Positions 5,703 to 40,192 of a DNA stretch of 64,000 nucleotides are shown one piece after another. Positions within the stretch are counted from its first letter, which is position 1, and each line of letters opens with the position of its first letter. The notes under the pieces are model-generated. The model saw only the letters and a list, made by a program, of their open reading frames with translations, did no database searches and was not told the DNA's origin. A program made the translations under genes and the position numbers. Origin of the DNA: Rahnella laticis (lineage in GTDB: Bacteria; Pseudomonadota; Gammaproteobacteria; Enterobacterales; Enterobacteriaceae). The stretch spans positions 62,001 through 126,000 of the forward strand of contig NZ_JADOBI010000012.1 of assembly GCF_015644585.1 (NCBI RefSeq), written 5' to 3'.

Positions 5703-5962
5703 GATGGCGCGCTAAAAATACAGCTGAACGGAGCGGCTTCGAGACCCATGGCTCGAAGACCGAGTGAAGGCAGCACGAAGTGCCTGGATTTGCGCCACCC
5801 GGAGAAGCGACAGAAAACGTTCATCGAACCAGCGGCAGCGCGCAGTAAAAAAGACGCGGAGATTCAAAAGAGGGCTCGTCATAGCCCTCTTTTGTCGGTT
5901 TCGGCACAGCGAGTTATGTGAACGCTGCGATTGAGAAACCGAAATATTCTCGGTCAGATGTC
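5703..5962 (-). repeat. Long intergenic repeat, copy C' (-)
   Basis: Inverted and more diverged partner of copy C. It carries the outer hairpin CAAAAGAGGGCT (5865-5876) / AGCCCTCTTTTG (5883-5894), followed by TCGGTTTCGG and one GAGAAACCGAAA unit that recurs in tandem in other copies. The remainder, 5963-6070, is described as a low-confidence tiny frame in the findings. Confidence 0.85.
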
Positions 5963-6070
5963 AGATGTCCGCCTTCACGGCCAGTAAAAAACCCATCGCC
6001 AGAATTAGCCCAATAATGAAACCCTTATCCCCCGATTACTCCCCCCGCGAATCGTGTCTAATACCTATCA

Positions 6071-8155
6071 TCAGAGAGGTGTAAACCCGGTCAGGCGAGA
6101 TTCTGAGGGCTGAGGCCGTCCAAAATAATATCCCTGGAACAAACTACAACCTTCTTCTTTCAGACGCCTGAACTGCTCGGGGGTTTCGACGCCTTCTGCG
6201 GTGGTCTGAATATCCAGACTGCGGCTCATGCCGGTGATGGCGCGGATGATCGCCAGCGCTTCGCGGCTGTCCTGCATATCGTTGATGAACGACCGGTCGA
6301 TTTTGATTTTGTCGAACGGGAACGAGCGCAGATAGCTCAGCGACGAATAGCCGGTGCCGAAATCATCCAGCGCGATACGCACGCCCAGCGCCTTCAGTTT
6401 TCGCAGGGTATCGATATTGCCCAGCGTATTGTCGAGCAGCACGGACTCGGTGATTTCCACTTCCAGCCGTGACGGATCCAGCCCGGACGCTTCCAGTGCG
6501 GATTCCACCACAGAAACCAGTCCGCTGTTTTTGAACTGAATCGGTGAGAGGTTCACGGCGACGGTCTGCGAGCCGGTCCAGGTTGTGGCTTCGCGGCAGG
6601 CTTCGTGCAGCGCAAAGGATCCAAGGCTGTGGATCAGGCCCGTTTCTTCGGCGATAGGGATGAAATCCACCGGCATAATCAGCCCGTTTTGCGGGTGATG
6701 CCAGCGCATCAGCGCCTCATAGCCGATGACCGCATCGTGTTTGGCGTCGGTAATTGGCTGGTAGTAAAGACGCAGCTGATTGCAGGTAATTGCGTCGCGC
6801 AAGTCCATTTCGACCACGCGGCGTTTACGGGCGGCGGCGTCCATTTCAATACGGAAATCTTCGTACCGGTTGCGGCCATTACGTTTGGCTTCGTAGAGCG
6901 CCATGTCCGCGCAACGCAGCAGCTGATCCGGTGTGTTCTCGATGGAATCCGCCAGCGCGATGCCGATACTCAGGCCGACCGAAAGCGAGTGACCGTCGAT
7001 AATGACCGGCGGACGCACGGATTCAATCAGGCGTTTGGAAATCTGATGCGCAGCGGAGATATCTTTCAGGCCGGGCAGCACGACGGCAAACTCGTCGCCA
7101 CCGATGCGCGCCAGCGTGTCGTCATCGCGCAGTGTCATCCGCAGACGTTTGGAAATCGCCCGCAGCAGCTCATCGCCGACCTGATGACCCAGCGCGTCAT
7201 TCACGTTTTTGAAGTTATCCAGATCCAGGCACAACGTGGCAGTGTGGCTGTGCGTATAGCTGTCGCGCTGCAACGCTTCATTAAGGCGCTGGCTGAAAAG
7301 AATGCGGTTGGGCAGGCTGGTCAGATTATCGTGGTGCGCCATGTGATGAATGCGCGCATGCGCAGCCTGCTGATCGGTCACGTCATCAGCAATCATCATC
7401 ACGTAACTGGTTTGCGGATCGTGTCCGCGGATCACCGAACTGGTGGTTTGCAGCGTACGGTCGCCGATGGCCGTCAGCAGCTGTTGCTCGCTTTTATGTA
7501 CACCTTCAGCGCGCAGGCATTCGTCCGACTGCTTATTAATAAAGTTGCTGAGCCCGAATCCCATGCAATCCTGCGGGCGTTTGCCGAGCATTTTCTCGCG
7601 CGAAATCCCCAGCAGGCGTTCGGCCTGACGGTTCACCAGCAGAATTTCCCGCGAAACGGCATTTTCGACGATCACGGAAGAGGGAATATTTGCGATCACC
7701 GTGTTCAGAAATTGCGATAAAGAGGAGAGCTGTTCGCTGTTGGATTCGGCCAGTTCTTTGGCCTTCAGCAACTCCTTTTCAGTTTCACGCCTTTGCGTTA
7801 CGTCACGGGTGATCTTGGCAAAACCAATGATTTCACCGGCTTCGCGCAGGGCTTCAATAATGATGTGCGCCCAAAAACGCGAGCCATCTTTGCGCTGTCG
7901 CCAGCCCTCAGATTCATAGCGGCCCGTTGAACGCGCGGTCTCCAGACCGTGCTGCGGCCAGCCACTCTTTTTGTCTTCTTCCGTGTAAAAGCATGAAAAA
8001 TGCTTCCCCACGACTTCTTCAGGCGTATAGCCTTTTGCCCGCTGCGCACCGGCATTCCAGTTCGCAATGGTGCCGTCCGGTGTCAGCATATAGATGGCGT
8101 AATCTTCTACGCGTTGGACCAGCAACCGATACAGTACATCAGAATCTTCGCTCAT
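6071..8155 (-). CDS. PAS-PAS-GGDEF-EAL cyclic-di-GMP synthase/phosphodiesterase
   Basis: A 694-aa soluble sensor that makes and/or breaks cyclic-di-GMP. Domains: PAS with PAC (about residues 5-125, NWNAGAQRAKGY), a short coiled linker, a second PAS (about 150-265), GGDEF (about 275-440) and EAL (about 445-690). The cyclase motif GGDEF (352-356) is intact, as is an RDDD inhibitory site (343-346) five residues before it. The EAL side keeps YEALMRWHHP, EITES, DDFGTGYSSL and TAEGVET, so both activities look possible. The open frame extends to a TTG at 8200, but the first ATG at 8155 is the better start. No transmembrane segments; the signal sensed by the PAS domains is unknown. Monocistronic. Confidence 0.93.
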   Translation of the reverse strand: MSEDSDVLYRLLVQRVEDYAIYMLTPDGTIANWNAGAQRAKGYTPEEVVGKHFSCFYTEEDKKSGWPQHGLETARSTGRYESEGWRQRKDGSRFWAHIIIEALREAGEIIGFAKITRDVTQRRETEKELLKAKELAESNSEQLSSLSQFLNTVIANIPSSVIVENAVSREILLVNRQAERLLGISREKMLGKRPQDCMGFGLSNFINKQSDECLRAEGVHKSEQQLLTAIGDRTLQTTSSVIRGHDPQTSYVMMIADDVTDQQAAHARIHHMAHHDNLTSLPNRILFSQRLNEALQRDSYTHSHTATLCLDLDNFKNVNDALGHQVGDELLRAISKRLRMTLRDDDTLARIGGDEFAVVLPGLKDISAAHQISKRLIESVRPPVIIDGHSLSVGLSIGIALADSIENTPDQLLRCADMALYEAKRNGRNRYEDFRIEMDAAARKRRVVEMDLRDAITCNQLRLYYQPITDAKHDAVIGYEALMRWHHPQNGLIMPVDFIPIAEETGLIHSLGSFALHEACREATTWTGSQTVAVNLSPIQFKNSGLVSVVESALEASGLDPSRLEVEITESVLLDNTLGNIDTLRKLKALGVRIALDDFGTGYSSLSYLRSFPFDKIKIDRSFINDMQDSREALAIIRAITGMSRSLDIQTTAEGVETPEQFRRLKEEGCSLFQGYYFGRPQPSESRLTGFTPL

Positions 8156-8506
8156 TTTTTTTGCCTGGTAGCCTGCCGTCTCTGCCCGGATTCCGTCCAA
8201 ATCAGAGTGCGGCTAAATAGTGCGCCTGTCCCGACGCATTTTTGCTGTGATGTGCTCATGAAACGTTAGCATAAGATAATTCTTAGTTCGCCAAATTTTG
8301 CTTCTAACATGCTTAAAATTAAGCGTTTTTAGCTAAAAGATCGGACTTAAGTTAAATTGCACTTTTGAGTTTTAGTGACCAAATCCGTTATCGGCACGGT
8401 AGGAATGAAACTTTAGTGGAATGGCATAAAAAGCTAAGGGAAATATGAGGGGATCCAATGTGTTAAATAAACAGGCCGCAAATTATTGCGGCCTGTTAAA
8501 TTTTGG
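8156..8506. other. Gene-free region with a terminator
   Basis: AT-rich leader between the divergent-facing ends of the GGDEF-EAL gene and the small exported protein. Apart from the hairpin at 8470-8497 and a short GCTTAA/TTAAGC inverted repeat with a T run (about 8311-8329), I see nothing coding in it. It must hold the promoter of the GGDEF-EAL gene. Confidence 0.6.
8470..8497 (-). terminator. Hairpin terminator after the His/Pro-rich protein
   Basis: AACAGGCCGCAA and TTGCGGCCTGTT form a perfect 12-bp stem with a four-base loop directly downstream (minus strand) of the stop codon at 8507. The following bases are T-rich but not a long T run. Confidence 0.7.
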
Positions 8507-8740
8507 TTACGGACGCTGCGGTTTGGGTTCGTGCTTCACCGGTGGTTTTGGCTTCGCTTTATGATGAACCGGCGCAGGTTTAACCTGATGATGCGGTTTT
8601 TCGTGTTTCACGACAGGCTTGTGAACTTTATGAACCGGCTGCGGCTGAGTGACCGGCCCATTGTGCGGACCATCAGCGTAAGCACTCAGGCTGGCGGTCG
8701 CCAGCAACGCACACAGAACAACCATTCCTGACTTAATCAT
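8507..8740 (-). CDS. Small exported His/Pro/Lys-rich protein
   Basis: A 77-aa protein with a clear signal peptide (about residues 1-22, hydrophobic core MVVLCALLATASL, cleavage near AYA). The mature ~55 residues are almost only Pro, His, Lys, Val and Gln in short irregular repeats such as KPVVKHEKPHH and KPKPPVKHEPKP. The start at 8740 is chosen over longer frames because GAGGAA precedes it and the signal peptide begins there. Such sequence is expected to be unfolded in the periplasm. Histidine content makes metal binding conceivable, but that is inference only. Its own terminator follows. Confidence 0.75.
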   Translation of the reverse strand: MIKSGMVVLCALLATASLSAYADGPHNGPVTQPQPVHKVHKPVVKHEKPHHQVKPAPVHHKAKPKPPVKHEPKPQRP

Positions 8741-11705: not shown

Positions 11706-13139
<1,434 letters not shown>

Positions 13140-13152
13140 TTTGTATTCAGGG

Positions 13153-13176
13153 CGGTCAGGTTGTATTACCTGACCG
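13153..13176. terminator. Hairpin between convergent ascB and LacI-type gene
   Basis: CGGTCAGG and CCTGACCG form an eight-base stem around an eight-base loop at the meeting point of the two genes; it overlaps the last codons of the minus-strand regulator. There is no good T run, so a terminator role is likely but not certain. Confidence 0.45.
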
Positions 13177-14194
13177 TACTCGCCCGAACCTTCAGTTTCC
13201 CCGCCATAATGACCCGCGTGGCGGCATCTTCGCCGGAGCACAAATATTCCACTGCCATCCGGCCTAATTCGTTATAGGGCAACTGGACGCTGGTGAGTTT
13301 TGGCGTCATCTGATCGGCGATGCGCTGATCGTCGTATCCGGCGACCAGAATGTCCTGCGGAATTCGCAGATGCAGTTCGGTCAGCGCCTGATAACAACCG
13401 ATGGTCATCCAGTCGCTGGAGCAGAAAATCGCATCCGGCGGCTCGGGCTGATCCATCAGCTGTAACGTCGCGCGGTAGGTTTCATTGAGTGACCAGTTGG
13501 TGGCCTGCACCAGCTTGTCATCGGGCATCATTCCCGCCTGCGTCAGGGCTTCGCGGTAACCTTCGAGACGCTTTTCACATGCTTCCATCCAGTTATCACC
13601 CATGATGTGCGCAATTCGCGTCGCACCCTGATCGATAAGATGACGGGTAATTTGCAACGCATTTGCCCGGTCGTCAGGCAGGAAAGTGGGCAGCAGCGGA
13701 TACGCGCGGTCGTACACATTCAGCAGAACGACAGGCAACGTGGTCTGGTTAACAAAAGGCGAGAAATCAATGGACTGAGTGACCGGCGACGCAATAATTA
13801 TGCCTGCACAACGCCGCTGATTGAGTTGTGCGATGATCCGCACGGCAAGTTCGGCGTCGTCGCCGTAATCGTAGATCGTCAGAAGCGTATCATGCCGCCA
13901 CGCTGCTTCCCGGGCTTCGCTGAGGGCATCAACAAACGGGTCATAGCTGGGCATCCCGTTGATCAGCAATGCAATTTCTTCCTGACCGTTGTCCCGGTGT
14001 GGAGCTGGCATTTTTTTGTAACCCAGCGAGAGCGCGGTATTGAACACGCGTTCACGGGTTTCTTCGCTGAGTTTAACGGAACGTGAATTGTTTAAAATCA
14101 GTGAAACGGTTGCCTGTGAAACCCCGGCTTCCCGCGCAATATCACTCATCGTGACTTTGTTTTTCTTCTCCATTTCCCTTTTCCCGTCTGCCAT
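13166..14194 (-). CDS. LacI-family transcriptional regulator
   Basis: A 342-aa repressor with an N-terminal helix-turn-helix (about residues 16-36, MSDIAREAGVSQATVSLIL), a hinge, and a periplasmic-binding-protein-like ligand domain. The ATG at 14194 has AAGGAGAG upstream. It is divergent from the glycosidase gene at 14374 and the GPH symporter behind it, so these are the likely targets. An AT-rich palindrome, CTAATAATATTAG, sits in the shared spacer. The ligand is probably the sugar handled by that pair, not identified. It is distinct from AscG in sequence. Confidence 0.88.
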   Translation of the reverse strand: MADGKREMEKKNKVTMSDIAREAGVSQATVSLILNNSRSVKLSEETRERVFNTALSLGYKKMPAPHRDNGQEEIALLINGMPSYDPFVDALSEAREAAWRHDTLLTIYDYGDDAELAVRIIAQLNQRRCAGIIIASPVTQSIDFSPFVNQTTLPVVLLNVYDRAYPLLPTFLPDDRANALQITRHLIDQGATRIAHIMGDNWMEACEKRLEGYREALTQAGMMPDDKLVQATNWSLNETYRATLQLMDQPEPPDAIFCSSDWMTIGCYQALTELHLRIPQDILVAGYDDQRIADQMTPKLTSVQLPYNELGRMAVEYLCSGEDAATRVIMAGKLKVRASTVR

Positions 14195-31080: not shown

Positions 31081-31128
31081 AGAAAATCAACAATCAGCCT
31101 GCATCTATCTTCCGAATTACATAGCCTG

Positions 31129-31426
31129 TGGCCGCTTTCAAAATGACGGCGAGTGAGGAGTGAGAAACGGCGAGAGTCTGTTTTCTAGCAGGTTCGAACC
31201 CGAGGCGAGAGAACCGCGCAGCGGCGGCGTTTGCGGCACTAGCCGGAGTTGCTGAAACATAGCCAGCGAGCGGAGCGCTTGTTGAAAAAGACGCGGAGAT
31301 TCCAAAGTGGGCTCGTCATAGCCCTCTTTGGTCGGTTTCGGCGCCAGCCGCTGAGCGATCACTGCAATTGAGAAACCGAAACTTTCTCGATCAATTTATT
31401 GCCCCTCACTGCAAGTGAAAAACCAC
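31129..31426 (-). repeat. Long intergenic repeat, copy F' (-)
   Basis: Starts with GGCCGCTTTCAAAA and carries the CCAAAG...CTTTGG hairpin (31303-31332), TCGGTTTCGG, one GAGAAACCGAAA unit and the CACTGCAAGTGAAAAACC end. With copy F it makes a tail-to-tail pair between two convergent monooxygenase genes. Confidence 0.9.
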
Positions 31427-34430: not shown

Positions 34431-34913
34431 CGTTTTCCCTTGTAATCGCAACACATCATTAACAACGATTATTAAAGTCAGGGGGAAGGGATGTAAAAGA
34501 ACAATAGTAGCTATGGAGTTGCAGGAAATGAGATTGGCGCAGTGGAGGAGGGACACGCTACCTTTGATGTCGGACAGCGTTTGCTATGCGGTTCGTTTTT
34601 TGATCAATTTTAAGAAAAGCAGTACGGTTACTACTAATCCTATTTGTACAAATAGGGATTTTTATGGATTTTTCATAAAAATGCGGATGTTTGGAATTTT
34701 TATGAGTAGAATAAATCAGGCGAAAAATCCGAATCAAATTTGACTAAAAAGTAGTCATTTGCATTATAAAGAACAGAAAATCATTTTCATCAGCTTTTGT
34801 TTATTATTAAAAATAACTAGTCAGAAGTTATTATAAGCGTCTTAAACGCATAGATAGTTATAACTCACACAAAATTTATTAATTCAAACTACACAGCCTA
34901 TGGATGTCATCTG
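34431..34913. other. AT-rich spacer at the left edge of the four-gene membrane operon
   Basis: Base composition drops sharply here. It contains a perfect 18-base palindrome, CCTATTTGTACAAATAGG (34639-34656), followed by a T run, and another inverted repeat TTTTTATG/CATAAAAA (34659-34682). No gene seen. The promoter of the operon should lie in its right half. Confidence 0.55.
34639..34666 (+). terminator. Palindrome with T-rich tail
   Basis: CCTATTTGTACAAATAGG, extended by AATC/GATT on the outside, then TTTTTAT. It looks like an AT-rich intrinsic terminator or a protein-binding palindrome; no plus-strand gene ends just upstream, so its purpose is unclear. Confidence 0.4.
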
Positions 34914-36347
34914 ATGCAATTTCTCAGAAAGATTCTCTCATGTATTACGGCCTTGTTCAAAACTGAAGACCAACTCCTTGATGTTGAAGTTTTTCCGAAG
35001 ATTGAACCAGAAAAACTGAAAAAAAATCTACAAATTGCCGAGCAAGCGAAGCGTCATGGGGCGAACGGTTTACCCCATGAAACCGCTACGGAACTGACTG
35101 ATACAGAACATAGTATACAGGCTACACTTGGTAAAATTAGGGAAGGGTTGGTTAAATGGGCGACTGCTGCGCTTAAGCAAAATCAAGACCGTCTTAATAC
35201 GATCGATATCACCGGCAGAATCAATCGTACAATTCTCCTTGGAGAAGAATATGAACGTGATGCTGATCAATTGATCTCAAGTCAGTCTGCTATGCTTGCA
35301 GAGTTACGTGAAATTGCGATTTCGAAAGCGAATGAGTTAGATTTTTTTAAGAGTAAAAATAAACTAACAAGGACGGCACAACTAAGAAATAGGGGGGCTA
35401 TTTTCCTTCATGGCACTCTTGTCTTAGCTTGTATAGCCATTGAAGGCATCATGAATTCTAGTTTCTTTGCAGAAGGTCTAAGTAGTGGTCTGGTTGGTGG
35501 TTTTCTATTTGCTGTCAGTCTCTCTGGTTTAAATGTTCTGACGTGCTTTATCATGGGACGTTTTGCTACCTTTAAGAATCATATAAGTTTATTCCAGCGC
35601 CTGTTTGGTCACGCAGCCATATTGACTATTTTAACTTTAACGATAATCCTTGGTTTAATTACTGCACACATTCGTGATGCATTGCCCCTGGTAACGGATA
35701 CGACTGAATCAGCGTGGGTTATTGCTAAAGAAACACTTGTGTCGACGCCGTTTATTCTTCATGATATTAGCTCTTATATCCTGTGGGTTTTAACGATAGT
35801 ATTTGGTTTAATTGCAGGGAGAGAAGGTTATACTTTTTCAGATCCCTATCCTGGCTATGCGAAATTGTATCGTACGTATGAAGAAATTCAGCGTGATTAC
35901 ATAAATGCCGTCGCAAGTTTGAACAATGATCTAGACATCCATAAAACTAAAATACTTGACAGTCTTGACTCTAATGTCACAGAAGCGACGAAAGATATAG
36001 CTAACTTCAAACGTAATATGAAAATGAAGTTAGTTACGAAAAAAAGACTTGATCAGGGTATGCTTTATGCTGACGAAACGCTTAAATCGCTCATAAAGAT
36101 GTATAGAATGGAAAATATGATGGCCAGGATTGAAAAGAATACGTATCCGAAATATTTTGATGAGCCTGTTAATTTCGATTTAATTCAATACCCAAATTTT
36201 GGAATTAGCCAAGATGAGATCAAATTGAATGAACAGGAACAACTTATGGCGGAAATGATATCAAAAATTGAAACTATAAGAGCAAAAATACAGGCTTCAT
36301 TTAACCAAAAGCATGATCAACTTCAGCCATTGCAACAACTCGTTTAA
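34914..36347 (+). CDS. Unrecognised four-TM protein, gene 1 of AT-rich membrane operon
   Basis: I do not recognise this 477-aa protein. It has a soluble, charged, helical N-terminal part (about 1-155), four predicted transmembrane helices (about 161-180, 192-214, 232-254, 285-302), and a C-terminal cytoplasmic part (about 303-477) rich in Lys/Glu/Gln with coiled-coil character. A short loop between helices 3 and 4 (HIRDALPLVTDTTES) would face the periplasm. There is no enzyme motif. The ribosome site is weak. Codon use is AT-rich, unlike the flanking metabolic genes. It starts a four-gene operon with two single-TM periplasmic proteins and a ZorA/MotA-like protein, so it is probably part of an envelope complex. 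Confidence 0.85.
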   Translation: MQFLRKILSCITALFKTEDQLLDVEVFPKIEPEKLKKNLQIAEQAKRHGANGLPHETATELTDTEHSIQATLGKIREGLVKWATAALKQNQDRLNTIDITGRINRTILLGEEYERDADQLISSQSAMLAELREIAISKANELDFFKSKNKLTRTAQLRNRGAIFLHGTLVLACIAIEGIMNSSFFAEGLSSGLVGGFLFAVSLSGLNVLTCFIMGRFATFKNHISLFQRLFGHAAILTILTLTIILGLITAHIRDALPLVTDTTESAWVIAKETLVSTPFILHDISSYILWVLTIVFGLIAGREGYTFSDPYPGYAKLYRTYEEIQRDYINAVASLNNDLDIHKTKILDSLDSNVTEATKDIANFKRNMKMKLVTKKRLDQGMLYADETLKSLIKMYRMENMMARIEKNTYPKYFDEPVNFDLIQYPNFGISQDEIKLNEQEQLMAEMISKIETIRAKIQASFNQKHDQLQPLQQLV

Positions 36348-36356
36348 GGAGACGCC

Positions 36357-37172
36357 ATGGTCATCCATTCGAAAAAAAAATCTAGCAATTACAGTGTCAT
36401 CGTTGGGATTTTAATCATCCTGGTTGTTATTGCGTTATCTGCTGCGACTTTATATAGTTTAATGACTAAAGAATCATTAAACTCAGAAACGTTATGCCCA
36501 ACAACCGGCCCTAAAGGGCATTATGTCATTTTAATTGATAACACATCTCCATTTCCCTACACTCAAAAAGCATCTTTATCTCAAGGTCTAAAAAATATTG
36601 TACGGAATGAATTACCAGAAGGCTACTTACTCTCTGTATTCCTGCTAGGTGAAGATGTAACTAAAAATGATAAACCTTTGTTCGAGCGTTGTAGTCCCGG
36701 TCAGTGGGGAAATAAAAGTCAACTTACATCGAATAAAAAATTCGTAGAAAGAGATTTTTACGAAAAATTCTCCAAACCTTTGGATGAGGTTGTTAAAAAA
36801 ATATCACTTGAAGAGCATTCAAAAAAATCTCCGGTTTTTGAAATGTTGCAGTTAGTGGGTATCAATGGCTTTGAGCATTCTGATGTAATAGGAGAGAAAA
36901 AATTAATAATTTACTCCGACATGTTGGCTAATACTCAAGAATTCAGTATGTATAAGGAACATATTCCATCTTATGAGAACTTTAGCAAAGTACCATACGC
37001 GCAACGGGCATTAGCACCAGGTTTGAAAGATGTATCTGTTTCTTTAAATTTTATTTCAGACCAACAGCAAAGCGGAAAATCACAAAAAACAAGATTGATT
37101 TCGTTTTGGGAAAAATATTTTGATGCCTCAGGCGCGAGCATTGAAAGCGTTCAATTCCTTGAGGGATTATAG
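36357..37172 (+). CDS. Membrane-anchored VWA-like protein, gene 2 of operon
   Basis: A 271-aa protein with a lysine-rich start, one N-terminal transmembrane helix (about 13-35) and a C-terminal domain expected in the periplasm. The domain starts GHYVILIDNTSPF (Asp61), later has KKLIIYSDM (Ser187-Asp188): a hydrophobic strand ending in Asp, then a second strand ending in SD, the pattern of a von Willebrand A fold with a degenerate metal site (DNTS in place of DxSxS). Cys47 and Cys112 could form a disulfide. A strong AAGGAG lies upstream. The stop codon TAG touches the next gene's ATG. Function unknown; VWA domains usually mediate protein contacts. Confidence 0.8.
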   Translation: MVIHSKKKSSNYSVIVGILIILVVIALSAATLYSLMTKESLNSETLCPTTGPKGHYVILIDNTSPFPYTQKASLSQGLKNIVRNELPEGYLLSVFLLGEDVTKNDKPLFERCSPGQWGNKSQLTSNKKFVERDFYEKFSKPLDEVVKKISLEEHSKKSPVFEMLQLVGINGFEHSDVIGEKKLIIYSDMLANTQEFSMYKEHIPSYENFSKVPYAQRALAPGLKDVSVSLNFISDQQQSGKSQKTRLISFWEKYFDASGASIESVQFLEGL

Positions 37173-38675
37173 ATGAGCCTAAAAGTTTTAATGAAAAAGG
37201 TTAGTACCTATTTTGTATTGGCAGTATTAATGAAAATTGGTCTTTCAGTTGCAGGGCTTGTGTTAAATGACCCTAAGTGGCTTGGGTTTATCTTGCCCAT
37301 CACGGTGATGCTCATTTATTGGGTGGTGGGTTATCAAGTTCGTAAAAAATGGGACCATGAACTTACTAAAGCCAAATTTGCTGATTCAATGTATTATCTA
37401 GGTTTTCTTTTCACTGTAGCGAGTATCATAATCTGCTTAATTGATATCGCGCGTATCGGTGATAGCCTTAATTTCATGGCTATTCGTTTTGGTGCGGCTA
37501 TGGTCAGTACCGCAATAGGCATGTTTGCAAGGGTTGTTCACACCGGTTTCCAGATAGATGCTAATGACGCGGTAATGAACATGGAAGAAAGGGTTCTGCA
37601 TTCAGCTGAAAGTTTAGCCATTGCATTTGATAATGCCCATCATGATTTGGAGCTCTTTCGCGATAAAGTAACTAATGCTTCTCAGGAGGCTATTTTAGGC
37701 GTTCAGGAACAAATTGAACAGTTATATACCCATTGTATTAACACGATGGATACATATTTTGTTAATGCTACGCAAAGTAGTAATGATGCTTTTGCTTTAA
37801 TCCTAGAAGATGCTAAATCGGCCAGCTTCGATCTATTGAAAATAATAAATACTATGTCAGATAAAAGTGCGACGACAATGTCAAAAATGGAATCAGACAC
37901 AATAGAATTTGGCGAGAAAGCAAGAAAAAGGCTGGAGCAAACTATGTTCCCAGATGATATTTTTGTTAAAAAACTTAACCCATCGATAGACACTTTGTCA
38001 GGCACTACTGACAATATAAATCAGGGGATTGTGTCACTTGCAGATGACGTTAAAACGGCTACGCGTCAGATTGGAAATGCCATTAAAGGTATTAACACCA
38101 AGACCGCCCAACTTGAAGCAAGTCTTCTTCAGGTTAGTGAGATTGTAGTTACACAGGAAAAACTTGTTGAAACGCTTGATAAACAGAACCATACATTTAT
38201 GCAACGTATCGAGCAGCAGCAAAACGACTTCCTGGATGCGTATGAAGAGATTAAAAATGATTCAGTAAGTGAAATAAAAATACAGCATCGGATGATTGAC
38301 GAATTTATTAGTAAACTAGAAACCTTTAACCAGGGTTTAGAGAAAGTTGCATCAGTAGAGGGTGTGAATAATGAATTGCTCGATGCTGTGCGTAATTTTA
38401 CTACATCGCAAAATGAAAATGCAAAGCTATTACATGATACGCTTTCGCCATTGACGCGAGCGGTTGAGAAAAGTAATGATGACAAAGAAATAAGGGTTTC
38501 TGATGCAGAGGATAAGGCATTCTCAATGCAATCAGTTAATAAAAATCTTATAAATATTATCGAAAAGATTGATACCATATATAAAGATAGTCAAATCAAT
38601 TCGTCTCACGACGAGGAGCATGGTGTTGTTAAACATGGCACGCCGGAAAATGCTTCAGATGTGAGAGTGTCTTAA
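37173..38675 (+). CDS. ZorA/MotA-like membrane protein with long coiled-coil tail, gene 3 of operon
   Basis: A 500-aa protein. Four hydrophobic segments (about 11-31, 36-56, 73-95, 103-120) are followed by about 370 cytoplasmic residues, mainly heptad-type coiled coil rich in Asn, Gln, Lys and Glu. Segments 3 and 4 (YYLGFLFTVASIIICLI and RFGAAMVSTAIGMFARVV) resemble the LGxLxTVxG and (A/L)xxTAxG helices of the MotA/TolQ/ExbB/ZorA proton-channel family. Helices plus a very long tail is the ZorA layout. The match is by eye and weak in identity. Start adjacent to the previous stop; its TAA overlaps the ATG of gene 4, implying fixed expression ratios. Confidence 0.78.
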   Translation: MSLKVLMKKVSTYFVLAVLMKIGLSVAGLVLNDPKWLGFILPITVMLIYWVVGYQVRKKWDHELTKAKFADSMYYLGFLFTVASIIICLIDIARIGDSLNFMAIRFGAAMVSTAIGMFARVVHTGFQIDANDAVMNMEERVLHSAESLAIAFDNAHHDLELFRDKVTNASQEAILGVQEQIEQLYTHCINTMDTYFVNATQSSNDAFALILEDAKSASFDLLKIINTMSDKSATTMSKMESDTIEFGEKARKRLEQTMFPDDIFVKKLNPSIDTLSGTTDNINQGIVSLADDVKTATRQIGNAIKGINTKTAQLEASLLQVSEIVVTQEKLVETLDKQNHTFMQRIEQQQNDFLDAYEEIKNDSVSEIKIQHRMIDEFISKLETFNQGLEKVASVEGVNNELLDAVRNFTTSQNENAKLLHDTLSPLTRAVEKSNDDKEIRVSDAEDKAFSMQSVNKNLINIIEKIDTIYKDSQINSSHDEEHGVVKHGTPENASDVRVS

Positions 38676-39727
38676 TGAGTTCAAAAAACGATCAGGTGTT
38701 TCAACTTTCATTGACTGAAATATTTATCATAATCTGCTTTGTTCTCCTTTTGTTGATGGGATTTCAAATTTTTCAATTGACCCATAAAAACCAAGAGTTA
38801 GAACGGAAAGTGTCATTGTCTGTTGATTTAGGCGAAAGAGAACATGCCATTAAAGTCGCTACTGCAGATTTGAAAATTCAACTTTCTTTGCTGGGTGTAA
38901 AGAAAACGGATGAACTTATAACAAAACTCATCGATGCATCTAAGGCGAAGGAAGAGGTATCACGCTTAAAAGTATTACTTGAAAATAAGGACGAAAAAAT
39001 AACAGCTTTGACTTCGATAGAAAAAGCCTTAGCGGAAGTAAATGGTAAAAAAAATGGTCCGGAAGCAAAACAGTTGTTATTGCAAACCATTATGACTTAT
39101 GAGCAGTTAAAAAAACTTGTTATTGATAAAACGGATGATAAAGACTTAGAACCTTCCGAAGTCGTTAAAAGAGTCGGGGAGCTAAAAACGGAAGTTCAAA
39201 CAATCAAAGATGCAGCAGGCACTACCGAAGATAGTTTCAAAGAGCAATTGGATGAAATTGTTAAAAATGCAAACGCATATACATCTGCTACTAAAAATGG
39301 CTCCAATCCAGTAGTGCTTGAGAAAAGTAACAAAGATTTACGTGTGCAGGTTCAATATTTGCAGAACAGATTAAACTCGGGAAGAGGTGTTGACTTACCC
39401 CCATGTTGGGTAAATGAAGAAACTGGAAAGATTGAAATGCTTTTTACGCTTTCACTTCGTGAAAATACAGTTTCATTAGCACCAGCATGGCCTGAGTCTC
39501 GTCAGGATGATGCAATGGCGCTGCCAGGTATCAATAATTTGCTGGCTAATACAAATCTTCCATATAATGAATTTATGCAATCTGTTAAAGCAATTAATGA
39601 ACTAAGTAAAGAAAAGGAATGTCGTTTTTATATTAGACTTTCCAGTATGATACCTGACGCAGTGACGTCAGATAGACGTCGTTTACTTATCGAAACAGTA
39701 TTTTATAAAACGGAAGTTCGTAGGTGA
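38675..39727 (+). CDS. ZorB/MotB-like single-TM protein, gene 4 of operon
   Basis: A 350-aa protein with one N-terminal helix (about 13-33, SLTEIFIIICFVLLLLMGF), a coiled-coil stalk (about 38-235) and a compact C-terminal domain (about 240-350) containing Cys244 and Cys316. In MotB, ExbD and ZorB an acidic residue in the single helix carries the proton; here Glu15 is at the start of the helix. The C-terminal domain has no OmpA peptidoglycan signature that I can see, so the periplasmic anchor would be different. Overlaps gene 3 by one base. A hairpin follows the stop. Function unknown; probable stator-like partner of gene 3. Confidence 0.78.
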   Translation: MSSKNDQVFQLSLTEIFIIICFVLLLLMGFQIFQLTHKNQELERKVSLSVDLGEREHAIKVATADLKIQLSLLGVKKTDELITKLIDASKAKEEVSRLKVLLENKDEKITALTSIEKALAEVNGKKNGPEAKQLLLQTIMTYEQLKKLVIDKTDDKDLEPSEVVKRVGELKTEVQTIKDAAGTTEDSFKEQLDEIVKNANAYTSATKNGSNPVVLEKSNKDLRVQVQYLQNRLNSGRGVDLPPCWVNEETGKIEMLFTLSLRENTVSLAPAWPESRQDDAMALPGINNLLANTNLPYNEFMQSVKAINELSKEKECRFYIRLSSMIPDAVTSDRRRLLIETVFYKTEVRR

Positions 39728-39736
39728 TCTAATACT

Positions 39737-39783
39737 AATTTCTGACCTGTAATAAGCTACTGTATAGTTACAAGTCAGAAATT
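39737..39783 (+). terminator. Hairpin at the end of the membrane operon
   Basis: AATTTCTGAC pairs with GTCAGAAATT and an inner TGTAA pairs with TTACA. It lies ten bases after the last stop codon. The T tract is short (ATTT), so termination strength is uncertain. Confidence 0.55.
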
Positions 39784-39943
39784 TATACCGTTAGTATGCA
39801 ATCTTATTTAGTTTGTTGCGCACGATGCGAAAAGATATGCAGTCTTCTCGGTGACCCTACTGCATGCTTTCAAAAAACGGCCACTGGTGTCTTAATTCGA
39901 AATAATAATTAATCAGTATTGATCTTCCGAAATACATATCCCC

Positions 39944-40192
39944 CCGCCGCTTTCAAAACGACGTTGAGTGAGCGGTGAGAAACGGCGAGAGTCTGTTTTC
40001 GAGCGGGTTCGAACCCGAAGCGAAAGTACCGCGTAGCGGCAAGATTTCGCGGCAATAGCCGGAGTTGCTGAAACATACTTTACAAGCGGCAGCTCGCAGT
40101 TAAAAAGCGCGGGAGTCCAGAGGGCGCGCGCGTTAACGCGCCCTTTGGGCCAGTTTGGGCGGCGAGCCCAAGGTTTGTGTGGCAACCCAAGG
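39944..40192 (-). repeat. Long intergenic repeat, copy G (-), unpaired
   Basis: Starts with GCCGCTTTCAAAACG and ends at the GGCAACCCAAGG hairpin. Its private stem is AGGGCGCG / CGCGCCCT (40121-40144). No plus-oriented partner is found nearby, unlike most other copies. The rest of 39784-40414 is an AT-rich leader with no gene. Confidence 0.88.

Follow-up and report, generated by a model that had tools for sequence, protein, structure and literature searches.

The question raised by this locus is what four tightly linked membrane proteins, none of them assignable to a recognised family, do together. The locus is an operon at positions 34914 to 39727 of a 64,000-nucleotide stretch of Rahnella laticis DNA (contig NZ_JADOBI010000012.1, positions 62,001 to 126,000), which is called the window in the following. 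Nucleases that lie next to, or are fused to, related operons are the best clue to its function. Taken as a whole, the operon may encode a MotAB/ZorAB-like motor with a von Willebrand factor A (VWA) partner and a four-transmembrane (four-TM) partner, acting against incoming DNA, a reading that we regard as evenly poised between right and wrong.

A conserved four-gene unit

All four genes are on the + strand. In gene 1 (34914..36347, 477 aa), large parts at both termini flank four predicted TM regions, and gene 2 (36357..37172, 271 aa) has an N-terminal TM anchor and a VWA-fold domain at about residues 50-271. Gene 3 (37173..38675, 500 aa) resembles an A subunit of the MotA/TolQ/ExbB/ZorA kind, with four TM helices followed by a long helical tail, and gene 4 (38675..39727, 350 aa) has the architecture of a MotB/ZorB-like B subunit, i.e., one TM helix, a long middle part, and a C-terminal domain. 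An earlier note, made by a model from the sequence of the window, had described four near-gapless genes, and both the open reading frames (ORFs) and their junctions were confirmed: TAAGGAG overlaps the stop codon of gene 1 ahead of gene 2, the TAG of gene 2 directly abuts the ATG of gene 3, and genes 3 and 4 share one base in TAATG. The A+T richness that it noted also holds, with a GC content of 0.35-0.38 in the genes (0.379, 0.352, 0.378, and 0.360 for genes 1 to 4) versus 0.47-0.62 per kb for the parts of the window beyond 34-40 kb, and hydropathy gives four, one, four, and one membrane regions, in line with its statement that every product has TM segments. The long coiled coils that it ascribed to all four proteins are borne out in part: gene 3 is an almost continuous helix after the TM part as far as it was modelled (to residue 229), and gene 2, one TM helix with a compact VWA domain, has none. 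Its finding of no recognised family agrees with the library searches, in which none of the four proteins matched a PADLOC family at E<=1, Pfam and NCBIfam gave no match above cut-off, and the best PHROG match had an E-value of 0.032.

This absence from the libraries stands despite 220 relatives of gene 3 found with its profile among GTDB species genomes. A set of 96 operons was assembled from the window, 13 loci taken from plasmids and from genomes under our G handles, and 82 loci found by gene 3 alone; it takes the best 80 of the 220 GTDB relatives together with two viral-contig matches found with the gene 3 alignment, whose phage nature is not established. The set is mostly rhizobial and redundant, and some loci share a record (L010 with L048, L011 with L067); the core genes were tagged among all ORFs. 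All four genes are present in 95 of the 96 operons, the other one (L070) being cut by a contig end, and all 95 complete operons have the order 1-2-3-4 on one strand. Because 95 of 96 operons share this order, the arrangement is not due to chance, and the four genes form one conserved unit. The earlier note held that the genes belong together, and the homologues are indeed not confined to unlinked genes.

The unit is rare and patchily distributed. Gene 3 occurs in 1 of 198 genomes of the family, the window's own, and gene 1 in 5 of 369 genomes of the class, own included. Among 398 genomes of the phylum, the gene 2 profile matched 16, a count that includes the window's own genome and non-motor types. 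The operon DNA has no megablast match in E. coli genomes, single-sequence tblastn with gene 3 found nothing on plasmids, and gene 1 was found neither in phage records nor in viral contigs. Relatives of gene 1 are carried by 23 plasmid records from Rhizobium, Paracoccus, Microvirga, Sinorhizobium, and Tistrella, 11 of them typed as conjugative; six of the 23 were opened, and each of the six contains the four genes.

Nucleases and defence genes around related operons

The neighbourhood survey that the earlier note had called for shows, besides the conserved order, nucleases that adjoin the operon or are fused to it. Counted over 44 operons left after 80% dereplication on gene 2, an SNase gene lies within 1.5 kb in 23. 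It is on the same strand in 17 of 22 operons; in the 23rd (L059) it is on the opposite strand, just before gene 1. The SNase density falls from 0.178 per kb within 1.5 kb of the operon to 0.0028 per kb in the zone of 1.5-6 kb (L059 not counted), and no SNase was found in 240 kb elsewhere in seven source genomes with a profile built from seven operon-linked nucleases, by which distant SNases could be undercounted. The family assignment is supported by PF00565 matches above cut-off in L034, L035, and L040, and SNase ranks first in a Pfam scan of 136 flanking proteins (17 of 136 at E<=1e-5). This flank set was drawn from 38 of the 44 operons, up to two genes on each side and window excluded, by a greedy gene caller, so that it and its control contain some spurious ORFs. 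A core of the R..DxPE type is kept in all 24 SNase ORFs listed, taking the form DALE in L129. Of 23 SNase ORFs checked, 21 have a hydrophobic segment close to the N-terminus; the SNase of L059, one of the other two, also has one when read from an internal start.

In two operons the nuclease is part of gene 4 itself. After an OmpA domain, gene 4 of L040 continues into an SNase domain (PF00565, 2.3e-13), and gene 4 of L039 continues into a GmrSD_C HNH domain (PF07510, 2.3e-11). The fused nuclease ends should lie in the periplasm, because gene 4 has a TM helix and an OmpA domain. In these two proteins, with the nuclease on the B subunit and presumably on its periplasmic side, a link between motor and cutting could be tested in one polypeptide. 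Since the SNases vary in position (upstream, downstream, on either strand, or fused), repeated recruitment of these nucleases is suggested. Near the operon of L034, an SNase with an Excalibur calcium-binding domain is encoded at 7668-8594, and just upstream of the HNH-fused operon of L039 there is a 746 aa protein (11786-14026), a GHKL-like ATPase by eye, which has no PADLOC match at E<=1e-10. The earlier note was made without relatives and did not remark on operon-linked nucleases.

The flanking proteins also bear on a defence role. In the PADLOC scan, the 136 proteins match 84 families, and 135 control proteins, taken from 20 other stretches of the seven source genomes, match 25. The 25 of the 84 families that were listed include type IIG and type II restriction-modification, AbiEii, Cas2, PDC-S06, and PDC-S46; AbiEii lies beside L011, Cas2 beside L040, and PDC-S06 beside L066. 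In the PADLOC check that placed these three, 7 of 10 proteins had no match.

From these observations the following mechanism is proposed. Genes 3 and 4 would make up a motor of the MotAB/TolQR/ExbBD/ZorAB type that sits in the inner membrane and is driven by ions. Gene 3 would be its A subunit, with a long helical tail in the cytoplasm, and gene 4 its B subunit, whose TM glutamate would carry the ions and whose C-terminal part would reach the periplasm. Gene 1 would be a dedicated four-TM partner with large end parts, and gene 2 a membrane-anchored periplasmic VWA partner that could either switch the motor or bind a target. In the family as a whole, the machine would act on DNA in the periplasm, because SNases with signal-like N-termini adjoin the operon, or an SNase or HNH domain is fused to the periplasmic end of gene 4. 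The entry of foreign DNA (a phage genome, perhaps a plasmid) would be sensed at the envelope, and force or ion flow would trigger cutting or exclusion. The simplest account would thus be a sensor motor like that of Zorya, but with an effector at work in the periplasm. The window copy would keep the engine and both partners without a nuclease of its own, and a C-terminal domain with a PPCW motif in its gene 4, described below, would presumably recruit or replace the effector. That genes 3 and 4 form a motor seems to us probable, and action on DNA is rather to be favoured; for a role in defence the odds appear about even. Ion flow, stoichiometry, nuclease topology, and the DNA target are inferred. 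The most specific version is more tentative and falls somewhat short of an even chance: a periplasmic immune machine, built as an ion-driven rotary motor with a Glu carrier and gated by the VWA protein, may detect DNA as it crosses the envelope and bring a separate, fused, or borrowed periplasmic nuclease to it before the DNA reaches the cytoplasm. If this is true, foreign DNA would be destroyed by such a defence ahead of its entry into the cytoplasm, the VWA and four-TM proteins would be a new partner set for ion-driven motors, and the system would be a new class if periplasmic cutting holds true.

Several results weigh against the proposed mechanism. In 19 of the 44 operons, those of the window and L013 among them, there is no recognised SNase, beside or fused, and no HNH fusion. 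No SNase was found in the window genome at E<=0.001, and there is none in or beside the window operon. Gene 4 of the window has no OmpA match. The enrichment of defence genes in the flanks is modest and rough, as the PADLOC families are redundant.

The nucleases could also serve DNA import or scavenging, in which the motor would pull extracellular DNA into or through the periplasm, where cutting by SNase would serve uptake or nutrition. Such a role would fit nucleases that adjoin, or are fused to, an envelope complex presumed to generate force, and it would also fit the occurrence of genes 1 and 2 beside a DNA-pumping VirD4/TraG ATPase in L037 (by Pfam) and L016 (by eye). However, reading 21 loci by eye showed no gene for competence or nucleotide uptake, nor was one among the 25 of 108 Pfam families listed, the 19 operons without a recognised nuclease tell against import as well, and patchy occurrence on plasmids and on an insert better suits an accessory defence; we therefore consider import unlikely. 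Two other families recur in the flank set, SH3_3 (bacterial SH3 domain, 6 of 136) and DUF4236 (3 of 136), which are possibly further cell-wall-linked parts.

The presumed motor pair and its partners

Gene 3 has four membrane regions by hydropathy (residues 13-31, 36-54, 75-93, and 101-119). Residues 1-230 were modelled with a predicted local distance difference test (pLDDT) score of 80.3. In a Foldseek search of 350,542 chains, the top 20 of 20 rows (14 entries) are ExbB, TolQ, or MotA complexes. In VIA, chain 8vvi_C of a type II ZorAB complex, taken to be ZorA, superposes with a Z-score of 9.0 and a root mean square deviation of 2.9 over 96 of 99 residues (17% identity), and 25 of 50 rows belong to the MotA/TolQ/ExbB/ZorA superfamily. 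Thr81 and Thr113, which may be the counterparts of the pore threonines of ExbB and TolQ, are invariant in 34 of 34 sequences.

Against a motor A subunit, the predicted template modelling score (pTM) is 0.46, the Foldseek E-values of 0.16-1.4 are not significant, and unrelated helical bundles, which reach middling Z by chance, appear in VIA at a Z similar to or higher than that of the ZorAB chain. The PF01618 (MotA_ExbB) match of gene 3 is below cut-off (E 0.004, 17.3 bits, cut-off 22.9), and this family was matched at E<=0.01 by 1 of 34 gene 3 relatives, the window itself, and at E<=0.1 by 2 of 8 (best 0.00025). Alignment by hhalign to 31 TolQ/ExbB/MotA proteins gave a probability of 0.5%, with reversed decoys at 1.5 and 2.2%, and a profile of the TM part found no motor protein in the PDB. 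Sequence proof was sought by these last routes, hhalign, PF01618 in relatives, and the TM profile, and failed; a full-length profile was discarded, as it retrieved mostly coiled coils, apolipoproteins, and spike proteins from the PDB. The ZorA/MotA likeness that the earlier note saw in gene 3 thus stands as fold resemblance, and its sequence evidence is weak. On fold and operon context, gene 3 is likely, though not proven, to be a motor A subunit.

Gene 4 has one membrane region (residues 15-33), and the glutamate within its TM helix (Glu15 in the window, codon 38717..38719, + strand), the candidate ion-carrying residue, is invariant in 95 of 95 sequences of the redundant set. OmpA (PF00691) was matched at E<=0.1 by five of the first eight gene 4 relatives (best 5.1e-6), and an OmpA-type GHTDE/GHAS motif is found in 92 of 95 sequences. 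The MotB/ZorB-like build claimed earlier for this protein is consistent with these features. The exceptions are the window, L013, and L038. Where the other relatives have OmpA, these three share a different C-terminal domain (39395..39724, + strand, in the window), which has a PPCW motif and one further cysteine common to all three. Homology of this domain to OmpA was rejected, as hhalign gave no link (0.1%, from three PPCW sequences only). No PPCW-domain relative was found on plasmids, and the gene 4 profile gave nothing significant in the PDB. In L013, the closest relative of the window found, a 160 aa protein, probably of the membrane and without a Pfam match, overlaps the end of gene 4 (5933-6415). 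The lack of OmpA in gene 4 of the window is not remarked in the earlier note, which had no relatives at hand.

Similar to MotAB, TolQR, and ExbBD, the pair combines a resemblance in fold of the TM part of gene 3, A-B gene pairing, and a TM acid in the B subunit; it differs in the linked VWA and four-TM genes, in the nuclease fusions of relatives, and in that gene 3 has no significant sequence relation to these motors. The OmpA-type motif of most gene 4 sequences (92 of 95), together with the ExbB and TolQ chains that head the fold list of gene 3, would also suit a Tol-Pal- or Ton-like machine for envelope maintenance or nutrient energising, to which the nucleases would be incidental neighbours. 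Such a machine would hardly be expected in 1 of 198 family genomes (gene 3) and 5 of 369 class genomes (gene 1), no receptor or TonB-like gene was seen by eye in 21 loci, and the fusions of gene 4 to nucleases and the approximately 60-fold drop in SNase density beyond 1.5 kb would be left unexplained. This explanation is, like import, an unlikely one.

Membership of standard Zorya was rejected, since PADLOC finds nothing at E<=1 for the four proteins, so that the relation is one of analogy only. The earlier note had likewise concluded that this is not standard Zorya and that no cytoplasmic effector is present; the operon has four genes only, and no ZorC/ZorD or ZorE was seen in it or beside it, where the neighbours were read by eye, look metabolic, and were not scanned with models. 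The likeness to ZorA and ZorB of types I and II lies in an A subunit with a TM bundle and a long helical tail, and in a B subunit whose one TM helix bears an acid and which, in most relatives here, has an OmpA-type domain. In a study of Zorya, Asp24 of ZorB is described as crucial for defence and peptidoglycan binding by ZorB as important for it (PMC11890865); gene 4 has Glu in its TM helix, whereas the ZorB residue is Asp. The present operon also differs in its extra four-TM and VWA proteins, in the lack of a ZorC/D/E-type cytoplasmic effector beside it, and in relatives whose nucleases have signal-like N-termini or are fused to the B subunit.

A divergent Zorya, in which the ZorAB-like motor would work as in Zorya and send its signal to a nuclease of the cytoplasm whose gene lies at another place in the genome, would account for the tight superposition of gene 3 on 8vvi_C and for the shared plan of an A subunit with a long tail and a B subunit with a TM acid. 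No PADLOC model was matched at E<=1, however, and the two genes that neighbour the operon look metabolic by eye. We know of no Zorya counterpart of genes 1 and 2, and we judge a divergent Zorya improbable, slightly more so than import. To our knowledge, it is still open how Zorya-type motors convert an event at the envelope into nuclease action. Among the matches listed from open-licence PMC full text, no such operon, no link between Zorya and thermonuclease, and no OmpA-nuclease motor was found by title or abstract, and no open-licence PMC paper was found with both "Zorya" and "thermonuclease".

The VWA-like domain that the earlier note saw in gene 2 is supported by the predicted structure. 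Gene 2 has one membrane region (residues 14-32), and its AlphaFold model, built from an alignment of 33 sequences, has a pLDDT of 87.5 and a pTM of 0.83. By this model gene 2 has a VWA fold: 101 PDB chains were matched by Foldseek at E<=0.001, most of the 50 listed being VWA-type by title, and VIA gave Z-scores of 12.9 (8s05) and 12.6 (4fx5); the gene 2 profile gave nothing significant in the PDB. Asp61, Ser158, Ser187, Asp188, Cys47, and Cys112 are invariant in 33 of 33 sequences, position 63 is Thr or Ser in all 33, and position 64 is Asp in 32 and Ser in the window. The canonical metal ion-dependent adhesion site of VWA proteins has the motif DxSxS. Gene 2 shares the fold of residues 50-271 with VWA proteins such as von Willebrand factor A, the integrin I domain, Rpn10, and Sec23, and differs from them in lacking this motif; the window reads DxTS at this site, most relatives read Dx(T/S)D, and Ser158 and Asp188 accompany it. 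Asp61, Thr/Ser63, Ser158, and Asp188 plausibly form a putative variant metal site. The two invariant cysteines would suit a periplasmic location of the domain.

A related VWA protein occurs in a three-gene operon of other bacteria, including the family of the window (L043-L047, e.g., L045:9186-13101), together with a glycine-zipper/OmpA lipoprotein and a protein of approximately 524 aa. The likeness lies in the VWA protein (hhalign 98.4% to gene 2, E 8e-15) and in an OmpA-domain protein (PF00691, 1.3e-21 in L045), and the difference is that no motor pair was tagged there. For the middle gene, hhalign gave 16% against gene 1, with a decoy at 1.2%, and neither the approximately 524 aa protein nor the VWA protein of L045 has a Pfam match.

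Gene 1 has, as claimed earlier, four helices between large end parts, with membrane regions at residues 162-180, 188-215, 235-253, and 284-302. No family of Pfam, PADLOC, NCBIfam, or PHROGs matches it at E<=1, and its PDB matches are two weak ones to coiled coils. Genes 1 and 2 also occur without the motor. They lie beside a VirD4/TraG coupling ATPase in L037:7079-10993 (PF02534, 2.4e-37) and beside a VirD4/TraG-type ATPase, read by eye, in L016:1076-4948; as elsewhere in this text, neighbours named without a family search were read by eye. No other type IV secretion system (T4SS) gene was recognised by eye in these two stretches, and a type III restriction system is nearby in L037, again by eye. 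In L015 and L041 the two genes have no recognised partner, and in L014:2939-5542 a ParA-like ATPase (by eye) is followed by a gene 1 relative at the contig end.

Insertion site and mobility

The neighbours of the operon in the window, read by eye, are a monooxygenase and a solute-binding protein, both of metabolic look. The insertion site was searched in 14 genomes of the same genus with the right-hand flanking gene as query, and the full gene was matched in two, the window's own and G937; the match in G934 is of 36 bases only. The flanks of G937 are approximately 94-97% identical to those of the window, and positions 34530 to about 39945 are missing, with a short different spacer in their place. 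Because the matching site lacks this stretch with conserved flanks, the operon sits on a discrete insert of approximately 5.4 kb (34530..39945), which contains the operon and an AT-rich leader. The plasmid copies, the empty site in G937, and the patchy occurrence are signs of mobility, which we count in favour of a motor acting against incoming DNA.

Mobility of this kind also raises the possibility of an entry-exclusion or maintenance module of plasmids and integrative elements, directed against rival conjugative DNA and not phage. Consistent with it are the 23 plasmid records with gene 1 relatives, 11 of them conjugative, the T4SS coupling ATPase beside genes 1 and 2 in L037 and, by eye, in L016, and the ParA-like ATPase before gene 1 in L014. 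The window copy, however, lies between metabolic genes that are shared with G937, and several of the 21 loci read by eye show no plasmid genes beside the operon, so that we hold such a module to be very improbable, the least probable of the explanations considered.

No tRNA was found within the window. Promoter-like sites are not in excess (15 versus 18.7 in shuffles), and terminator-like sites number 8 versus 3.7 in shuffles, none of them on the + strand after the operon. A repeat of approximately 190 bp is present at the right edge of the insert (39946-40135) and 8.8 kb upstream (31110-31298), and both copies are 86% matches to one and the same sequence at the empty site in G937.

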